From assembly GCF_002208115.1 (NCBI RefSeq), contig NZ_CP020946.1, positions 3,286,001 to 3,350,000 of the forward strand: 64,000 nt of DNA. Reading direction: 5' to 3'. The DNA comes from Bdellovibrio bacteriovorus. Its GTDB lineage: Bacteria > Bdellovibrionota > Bdellovibrionia > Bdellovibrionales > Bdellovibrionaceae. Of the stretch, positions 44,248 to 46,665 are shown one piece after another. The notes under the pieces are model-generated. The model was not told the origin of the DNA, did not search any database, and was given only the letters and a program-made list of their open reading frames with translations. The first letter of the stretch is position 1, and every line of letters starts with the position of its first letter. A program made the translations under genes and the position numbers.

Positions 44248-44907
44248 ATGGCATTAAAAGAGATCATAGAAAAAGCAAAACCCGCGAAGATCCTGGCCGT
44301 TTCCAAACTTCAACCGGCAAAAAAGGTGCGTATCCTGTACGCCGAGGGTCAGCGCCTGTTTGGTGAAAATTACGTTCAGGAAGCCCTTGAAAAACAAAGT
44401 GTGCTTTCTGACCTTCCTGATATTCAGTGGCATCTGATTGGACACCTTCAAAAGAACAAAGCAAAAATGGTGGTTGGAAAATTCCACCTCATCCATTCGG
44501 TGGACTCTCTGGAACTAGCCCAGGTGATCAGCCGGCAGTGCGAACAAAAAGGCGTCAGACAAAATATCCTGATCCAGGTGAATCTGGCGGGCGAAGCCAG
44601 CAAAGAGGGCTTTTCCACTGAAACCCTGGAAAGCCAGTGGGCGGACCTGACAAAACTGCCGCATCTTCATATTTATGGCCTGATGACCATGCCCCCATTA
44701 ACCGAAACCGGGGCCGAAGTACGTCCTTACTTTGCAGAGCTGCGCCGACTGCGCGACCGACTGAAAGCGGCCACGGACACGACAGTTCACCCACTGAATG
44801 AGCTGTCAATGGGCACGAGTCACGATTATCCGGTCGCGGTCGAAGAAGGCGCCACAATCGTGCGGCTTGGGACTATTTTATTTGGCGAACGTCCCGCCAA
44901 AGGGTAG
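44248..44907 (+). CDS. yggS: Pyridoxal-phosphate homeostasis protein YggS
   Basis: 219 aa, slightly shorter than usual at the N-terminus. It binds PLP and balances B6 vitamers and amino-acid pools. The PLP lysine is in L-A-V-S-K near residue 19. F-G-E-N-Y-V-Q-E, W-H-L-I-G-H-L-Q-x-N-K, G-L-M-T-M and L-S-M-G-T-S-H-D-Y-x-x-A-V are all present. It precedes proC by 9 bases, the common yggS-proC arrangement. No Shine-Dalgarno is seen. Confidence 0.95.
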   Translation: MALKEIIEKAKPAKILAVSKLQPAKKVRILYAEGQRLFGENYVQEALEKQSVLSDLPDIQWHLIGHLQKNKAKMVVGKFHLIHSVDSLELAQVISRQCEQKGVRQNILIQVNLAGEASKEGFSTETLESQWADLTKLPHLHIYGLMTMPPLTETGAEVRPYFAELRRLRDRLKAATDTTVHPLNELSMGTSHDYPVAVEEGATIVRLGTILFGERPAKG

Positions 44908-44916
44908 GATCACTAT

Positions 44917-45744
44917 ATGAATCCCTTGTTGAAATCGCAAAAAATCGGCTTTCTGGGTGCAGGGAATATGGCGCAAGCCATGATCAAAGGTCTCGTCGAA
45001 GGAGGCTTTCCTGCCAAAAACATCTTCGCTTCCAACCGCTCCGAAGGAAAACTTCACAAGCTCGCTGAAACTTTCAAAATAAATCCGGTCTTCAGCAATG
45101 ACGAGCTGGTCGACACTTGCGACATCATCATTCTGGCCATCAAGCCTCAGGATCTTCTGCAGGCTCTGGAGCCTGTGACCCGCAGCTTTGACGAACACAA
45201 GATCGTCATCAGTGTCGCTGCCGGCATCCGCATGGAGAAACTGGAACGCTACATTCAGGGCGCCCGACTTGCCCGAGTTATGCCCAACACCCCGTCCCTG
45301 ATCGGTCGCGGTGTCATCGGTTATCTTTTGAATGATGAAGACGACGGCGGACTGGATAGCACAGTGGAAGATCTTTTCCAGCCACTGGGTCGCGTGATTC
45401 AGGTGCACGACGAGGATCAGTTTGAAGCTTTGATGGTTTCCTGCTCCAGCGGAACCGGATTTGTCTTTGAAATGATGATGTACTGGCAGGACTGGATCGA
45501 AGAGCACGGCTTCTCTGTTGAAGAGGCGCGCATGATGACGATTGAAACTTTTGTCGGCGCTTCATTGCTGGCGGCGCAAGCCCGCGAAGGGGTTGAAGAC
45601 CTGCAGGCCCGCGTCACCTCCAAGAAAGGTGTCACGGCGGCTGGACTTCAGTCCATGAGAGAGCTTGAGATTGAACGCGCTCTTCGCATCAGCTTTGAAA
45701 AAGCAGCGATGAGAAACAAAGAAATGGCCCGGGAAATCAAATAA
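44917..45744 (+). CDS. proC: Pyrroline-5-carboxylate reductase
   Basis: 275 aa. Last step of proline synthesis, NADPH-dependent. I-G-F-L-G-A-G-N-M-A-Q-A-M near residue 11 is the cofactor loop, and A-R-V-M-P-N-T-P and V-T-S-K-K-G-V-T-A-A-G-L are the substrate motifs (the last usually reads S-P-G-G-T-T; here K-K-G-V-T). Second gene after yggS. AGGAT precedes the ATG. Confidence 0.95.
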   Translation: MNPLLKSQKIGFLGAGNMAQAMIKGLVEGGFPAKNIFASNRSEGKLHKLAETFKINPVFSNDELVDTCDIIILAIKPQDLLQALEPVTRSFDEHKIVISVAAGIRMEKLERYIQGARLARVMPNTPSLIGRGVIGYLLNDEDDGGLDSTVEDLFQPLGRVIQVHDEDQFEALMVSCSSGTGFVFEMMMYWQDWIEEHGFSVEEARMMTIETFVGASLLAAQAREGVEDLQARVTSKKGVTAAGLQSMRELEIERALRISFEKAAMRNKEMAREIK

Positions 45745-45803: not shown

Positions 45804-46357
45804 ATGAGAATTACTCCTATCGATATCGCTCACAAATCTTTTGGTAAAAAGATGATGGGTCTTGATGCTGACGAGGTTATGGATTTCCTTCAGCAGATCG
45901 CCGCTCAGATGGAGTCTTTAATTCAGGAACGAAACACATTCAGGAACGAAACACCCTGAAAGAAGCCATCCGCGAAAAAGAACTTTCTTTGATGGAATAC
46001 AAAGAGCGCGATCAGGTTTTGAAAGAAACCATCGCCACAGCAACCCAGATGGCAGACCGCCTTCGCCAGGATGCCGACCGTGAAGCGAAACTGATCATCG
46101 CCGATGCTCAGCAAAAGGCTGAAATCATCACCCGTGATTCCCGTGACTCTTTGAAGAAAATGTACCAGGAAGTGACAGAACTGAAGCGTGCGCGCATGCA
46201 GTTTGAAGCCAACCTGAAAGCTCTGGCCCAGGCGCATTTGTCCCTGCTGGAACAAGGTGAAAAGTACATGCCGCAAGCGCAACTTCCAAATCACAATATC
46301 GTGAATGGAAATGGCTCTGGCCGCACCACCAACGTGTCCCCGCTTTCTGCCGAATAA
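45804..46357 (+). pseudogene. divIVA: divIVA interrupted by a 17-bp tandem duplication
   Basis: DivIVA proteins mark poles and septa and organise growth and division. The start is excellent (AAGGAGGAAC before ATG 45804) and the N-terminus M-R-I-T-P-I-D-I-A-H-K-S-F with G-L-D-A-D-E-V-M-D-F-L is the lipid-binding DivIVA motif. After residue 45 a perfect 17-bp repeat (45921-45937, 45938-45954) shifts the frame and a TGA at 45957 ends a 51-aa product. Removing one copy gives an uninterrupted 178-aa protein whose second half is coiled coil. The distal part (ATG 45989) has no ribosome-binding site. No -1 slippery heptamer is visible. Could be a strain mutation, a reversible switch or an assembly error. 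Confidence 0.85.
45921..45954 (+). repeat. Perfect 17-bp tandem duplication inside divIVA
   Basis: ATTCAGGAACGAAACAC occurs twice head to tail with no differences. Its length is not a multiple of three, so it breaks the frame. Identity of the copies suggests a recent event. Confidence 0.97.
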
Positions 46358-46374: not shown

Positions 46375-46665
46375 ATGATTGAATCAACAAAAGGTGGAGT
46401 TCGACTCCACCTTTTTATTCAGCCCAAGTCATCCAAGAACGAAGTTGTCGGTCCCCACAACGGCGAACTCAAGATCAAACTGACCGCCCCGCCTGTCGAC
46501 GGAAAAGCCAACGAATGCCTGATCGAGTTTCTGTCGGATCTTTTTGATATTCCCAAGCGCGATGTACATCTGATCAAAGGCGAAACCGGGCGCCACAAAG
46601 TGGTGGAACTGTCCGGCCTTGATGCCGAAAAAACAAGGGAAGCACTGAGGCTTCCCAAAAACTAA
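46375..46665 (+). CDS. yggU: DUF167 family protein (YggU-like)
   Basis: 96 aa. The family pattern is V-R-L-H-L-F-I-Q-P-K-S-S-K-N-E-V-V-G near residue 9, then A-P-P-V-D-G-K-A-N-E-C-L-I-E-F-L-S and G-E-T-G-R-H-K-V-V. Function unknown, but yggU often travels with yggS, proC and yggT or divIVA, as here. Its end overlaps the converging barrel gene by 4 bases. There is no Shine-Dalgarno, so translation may depend on read-through from divIVA, which the frameshift could disturb. Confidence 0.92.
   Translation: MIESTKGGVRLHLFIQPKSSKNEVVGPHNGELKIKLTAPPVDGKANECLIEFLSDLFDIPKRDVHLIKGETGRHKVVELSGLDAEKTREALRLPKN

Follow-up and report, generated by a model that had tools for sequence, protein, structure and literature searches.

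A perfect 17-bp duplication that breaks divIVA in the Bdellovibrio bacteriovorus SSB218315 chromosome is probably an assembly artefact

Introduction

The deposited chromosome of Bdellovibrio bacteriovorus SSB218315 contains a divIVA gene whose reading frame is broken by a tandem duplication, and the question raised by this locus is whether the strain has lost the protein or whether the duplication arose when the sequence was assembled. A sequence-only reading of the window (the whole 64,000-nucleotide stretch analysed) had taken the duplication for a recent event or an on/off switch, and had listed a host-independent or morphology mutant and an assembly artefact as alternatives. The artefact was rightly listed but ranked too low, as it is the best-supported explanation, with like lesions at eight or nine other compared sites and untrimmed joins elsewhere. 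The duplication as a feature of the organism is probably not real. An error of contig joining in the assembly is very likely its origin, because several duplications of this kind occur in the same genome, which also shows clear evidence of faulty joins between sequence pieces. Papers are cited by PMC number.

A perfect 17-bp duplication breaks the divIVA frame

The unit ATTCAGGAACGAAACAC is present twice, head to tail, at 45921-45954, and the copies are identical at 17/17 positions, as had been read from the sequence. This duplication has the top score among the 14 Tandem Repeats Finder rows for the window (68; next 46), and a perfect tandem unit of at least 17 bp is expected about 1e-5 times in 64 kb of random sequence. 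The 17-mer has no other occurrence in its own genome at up to two mismatches, and the microhomology at the unit ends is 0 bp. The frame opened by the ATG at 45804 ends after 51 residues, again as first noticed, and the DivIVA frame resumes in the sequence read from 45938 and runs to 46357 (Table 1). Between 45938 and 46357, the codons differ from those of HD100 by 24 synonymous and 4 nonsynonymous changes (dN 0.012, dS 0.36), and the remainder of divIVA is under strong constraint and free of a second lesion.

Rescue of the frame by a slippery -1 frameshift was rejected, as inspection by eye found no canonical slippery heptamer upstream of the stop. A downstream restart was likewise set aside: an ORF from the TTG at 45989 exists, a clear ribosome-binding site was not seen by eye, and the N-terminal domain would be missing. 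DNA folding of 45870-46010 gave an unremarkable z of 0.43, and a hairpin was dropped as the cause of the duplication.

Table 1. Features of the divIVA region and genes hit by like duplications. Positions refer to the window unless marked as genome positions.
Feature	Position	Strand	Unit and effect	Basis
yggS (Ala_racemase_N), first operon gene	44248..44907	+		Pfam; order in PMC7186360
proC (pyrroline-5-carboxylate reductase)	44917..45744	+		Pfam; PMC7186360
divIVA locus (orthologue of Bd0464), frame broken in deposited sequence	45804..46357	+	17-bp unit, out of frame	frame translation, alignment of relatives, Pfam match of HD100 orthologue
17-bp unit, copy 1	45921..45937	+		sequence, Tandem Repeats Finder
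17-bp unit, copy 2	45938..45954	+		sequence, Tandem Repeats Finder
premature TGA, after 51 codons	45955..45957	+		translation
yggU (DUF167)	46375..46665	+		Pfam; PMC7186360
small protein, last residues (putatively outer-membrane-like, by eye)	1125737 (genome)		19-bp unit, out of frame; tail altered and lengthened, not truncated	
chromate transporter	2055606 (genome)		13-bp unit, out of frame	
FtsX/MacB-type permease	2743888 (genome)		13-bp unit, out of frame	
PAS-containing sensor histidine kinase	2823306 (genome)		16-bp unit, out of frame	
HAD hydrolase	2876319 (genome)		10-bp unit, out of frame	

Related genomes carry a single copy

The HD100 orthologue of the gene matches Pfam PF05103 DivIVA over residues 3-133 (E 9e-39; the HD100 protein was the one scanned), and the earlier identification of the gene as divIVA, Bd0464, agrees with PMC7186360. 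The four-gene operon order yggS-proC-divIVA-yggU reported around Bd0464 in HD100 (PMC7186360) is also found in the window, with Pfam matches for the three neighbours, and the residues are near-identical to those of HD100 outside the lesion. In contrast, HD100 has one 17-bp copy and an open 178-aa frame. The same holds for the aligned related loci (23 of the same genus and one of the same family, each another species-level genome), where 24/24 have the 17-bp unit once, in a frame that is open for 176-189 aa; this count leaves out the more distant matches L026-L030 and rows without a locus, and 6/39 searched genomes gave no match. A second set from a contig scan, with some loci from the same genomes as the aligned set, has an open frame of 161-196 aa in 26/26 loci. 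Among the loci examined, the duplication is therefore confined to the SSB218315 sequence, and the alignment with other strains proposed by the sequence-only reading gives a single copy and an open frame in HD100 and in every aligned relative. CALQIT020000030.1, a record titled Streptomyces griseus MAG, holds a DivIVA gene with 71% identity to the Bdellovibrio one and is therefore probably mislabelled or contaminated.

Repeat-based phase-variable (contingency) loci are a familiar class, and divIVA resembles them in that the unit length is indivisible by three and the unit lies inside a coding frame. In a switch of this type, divIVA would go off and on with growth and shrinkage of the repeat by its 17-bp unit. 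The perfect copies would agree with this, and gain or loss of one unit would toggle the frame because 17 is not a multiple of three. However, SSB218315 has two copies only and all 24 aligned relatives have one, so that the copy-number variation among strains that marks a phase-variable locus is missing (each relative being another species-level genome). The unit-end microhomology that marks a slippage-generated duplication is also absent at divIVA, and the same class of lesion is found in intergenic DNA and unrelated genes. The on/off switch suggested from the sequence is thus very improbable.

Loss of divIVA is compatible with predation

If the duplication were real and recent and had inactivated divIVA in the lineage or the culture that was sequenced, the product would consist of the first ~45 DivIVA residues and a short out-of-frame tail. 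Such a loss is made conceivable by the deletion of divIVA in predatory HD100 (PMC7186360) and in a second study (PMC11025332). The two papers conflict over the effect of divIVA loss on the shape of B. bacteriovorus: the HD100 deletion mutant had shorter and wider cells in the former (PMC7186360), and length, width, curvature and prey killing were unchanged in the latter (PMC11025332). The loss could drift through a culture, since the deletion is viable and caused no shape or killing defect in the second study; it would also be tolerable because, besides that viability, SSB218315 is described as plaque-forming and comma-shaped. The isolate is described as forming plaques, being motile and having a comma shape in AFM (PMC5221441), which speaks against a host-independent or morphology mutant in which divIVA loss is part of that state. 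The broken divIVA frame, and nothing else, points to such a mutant, and predatory growth is compatible with divIVA loss (PMC7186360, PMC11025332); this part of the sequence-only reading is hardly credible. In a literature search on Bdellovibrio with tandem duplication or frameshift, the divIVA lesion was unnamed in the titles and abstract beginnings of the matches listed.

Like duplications are frequent in the SSB218315 assembly

Five 200-kb blocks of SSB218315 were compared with the syntenic blocks of HD100. The SSB218315 blocks contain 19 perfect tandem duplications with a unit of at least 10 bp. In 10/19, all with units of 10-19 bp, HD100 lacks the duplication, the alignment gap being exactly one unit long. 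Of the other nine, HD100 matches four short ones partly or not at all and has no match for the two of 77 bp; one is a low-complexity site (gap 4 of 15), and two are common to both strains. The HD100 blocks contain four duplications of at least 10 bp; three show no length difference in SSB218315 and one is unmatched, so no HD100-only duplication of this size is shown. A stricter whole-block alignment (738 kb aligned) gave 9 SSB218315-only vs 0 HD100-only, the lost site being 2091321, where the sequence is poorly conserved and the gap is split (sign tests, p 0.002 for 10 vs 0 and p 0.004 for 9 vs 0). Duplication of this kind is not special to divIVA, and the excess of perfect tandem copies over a relative is what a contig-join artefact would be expected to produce.

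Perfect units of 10-20 bp number 18 in 1.4 Mb of SSB218315 (37% of the chromosome) vs 4 in 1.0 Mb of HD100, with 1 in 200 kb of Tiberius and none in the 100 kb counted from either kdesi or G021. SSB218315 has no surplus of units of 8-9 bp (36 in 1.4 Mb vs 34 in 1.0 Mb of HD100); below 10 bp, two units of 9 bp and one of 6 bp are SSB218315-only, and three of 6-8 bp are HD100-only. The stricter alignment has 75 non-tandem insertions of at least 4 bp in one direction and 88 in the other.

These counts argue against a real knockout, which would require nine or ten like events in the compared blocks, in one lineage, and none in HD100. Together with the lack of microhomology at divIVA and the join errors elsewhere in the same chromosome, they make it an unlikely explanation. 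SSB218315 might instead truly carry dozens of fresh perfect duplications of 10-19 bp without microhomology (a number extrapolated from the sampled blocks). A strain-specific process would then have made them and hit divIVA among other sites, for example Ku-dependent end joining after fill-in of staggered breaks. Ku is encoded in 5/5 genomes tested (SSB218315 and four relatives) and therefore would not by itself explain why HD100 lacks the duplications; such a process is, in our estimate, quite improbable.

The duplications are unevenly placed: 14/16 of the SSB218315 duplications of 10-19 bp unmatched in HD100 fall in three of seven blocks (1.0-1.2, 2.0-2.2 and 2.7-2.9 Mb) and 2/16 in the other 800 kb sampled (p 0.0003, for a grouping picked after seeing the data). 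The 16 include sites with no or partial match, one in a block uncompared with HD100 and one of low complexity (2809710). The GC skew reverses between 1.2 and 2.0 Mb, and a link of the clusters to the terminus was dropped, as the third block does not lie clearly closer to the terminus than the empty blocks do. A census of split genes with stop-to-stop ORFs was also discarded as too noisy, antisense and upstream extensions being scored as splits both ways.

Sequence context of the ten sites

Six of the ten sites lie in genes, all six with the unit out of frame (Table 1), and four are intergenic (3/9 in the stricter set). Against an assumed intergenic share of 8-12%, 4/10 gives p 0.006-0.024 and 3/9 gives p 0.03-0.08. 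This share leans towards real events, as an excess of intergenic sites is what purifying selection would leave, though AT-rich coverage dips would also give it. An unsystematic look at the six hit genes found no known essential gene among them, which leans the same way.

Matching flanks beyond the two full copies measure 0-2 bp at the ten sites (mean 1.1; random ends 0.67; P 0.11). These lengths are not clearly above random, which does not favour replication slippage on microhomology. The GC content within 50 bp of the ten sites is 0.43 vs 0.504 (P 0.0001). AT-rich intergenic sites contribute to this low value; taken by themselves, the six coding sites give 0.455 (P 0.018), and the divIVA site gives 0.44. 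The sites are thus AT-rich, as expected of coverage dips.

Exact 77-bp duplications point to untrimmed joins

Untrimmed joins of overlapping contigs are a familiar error of short-read assemblies. At genome positions 2719636-2720004, a 77-bp segment X occurs twice, followed by a 61-bp middle segment and a 77-bp segment Y that also occurs twice (X X mid Y Y), all copies being exact. At the paralogous locus, from 617843 down to 617690, X abuts Y and the 61-bp segment is missing, and in the HD100 counterpart, ~85% identical, X, mid and Y follow one another unduplicated. A shared contig X-mid-Y with 77-bp overlaps would have been placed end to end with its neighbouring contigs at one locus and omitted at the other, and a join error inside this large repetitive gene (2719636-2720004 / 617690-617843) is very probable from the arrangement of the segments. 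Because X X mid Y Y stands at one locus and X Y at its paralogue, the deposited chromosome very probably holds untrimmed contig overlaps, an independent sign of the kind expected of a contig-join artefact. A search of 1.4 Mb of SSB218315 for perfect units of up to 300 bp found none of 20-76 bp and only two longer ones, both exactly 77 bp. SPAdes is commonly run with a k of 77, and its smallest usual k is 21. The 77-bp overlap length is at odds with the stated 75-nt reads of SSB218315.

The chromosome of 3,769,537 bp was obtained from NextSeq 2x75 paired Illumina reads with SPAdes 3.10, scaffolding by MeDuSa and improvement by IMAGE (PMC5941755), which makes it a software-closed short-read assembly. 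The IMAGE paper reports that 78 of the gaps closed in one genome had a negative length; it calls these artificial, the contigs being directly joinable (PMC2884544). In the available part of that paper the words duplicat- and tandem are absent (PMC2884544), and among the matches listed in a literature search on contig ends, assembly and gap closing, false tandem duplication is unmentioned.

A contig join would account for the divIVA lesion

In the explanation we consider very likely, two short-read contigs would have ended inside divIVA, sharing 17 bp, an overlap that, like the other duplications of 10-19 bp, falls below the smallest usual SPAdes k-mer. The ends would have been caused by a coverage gap and not by a repeat, as the 17-mer is unique in the genome. 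If the contigs were set end to end with the overlap untrimmed, the common 17 bp would be written twice, which would break the divIVA frame, and the living strain would have an ordinary intact gene. We therefore regard divIVA as probably intact in the strain. The lesion resembles untrimmed overlap joins in that perfect head-to-tail copies recur at many sites and are confined to one assembly, and the chromosome shares with such joins the exact 77-bp duplications around a shared segment. It differs in that the divIVA overlap is 17 bp, not a standard k-mer length, and in that its contig ends are postulated. Besides the intergenic excess and the absence of known essential genes among those hit, the lack of a clear excess below 9 bp, which a plain short-overlap model predicts, leans against a join, the 77-bp overlaps do not fit 75-nt reads, and sequenced PCR products agreed with IMAGE closures in all but one of 71 (PMC2884544).

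Consequences for genome comparisons

If the duplications were real, they would represent an unusual mutation process in a predator and the natural loss of a polar hub protein. If they are artefacts, the SSB218315 chromosome needs to be re-sequenced before its pseudogenes or missing genes enter comparisons. For the sister isolate SKB1291214 a chromosome record exists, NZ_CP106855. The genome paper lists 3579 CDS, 3536 of them coding, for SSB218315, and six exclusively absent genes in this strain vs one each in HD100, Tiberius and 109J (PMC5941755); part of these absent-gene and noncoding-CDS counts may come from such joins.
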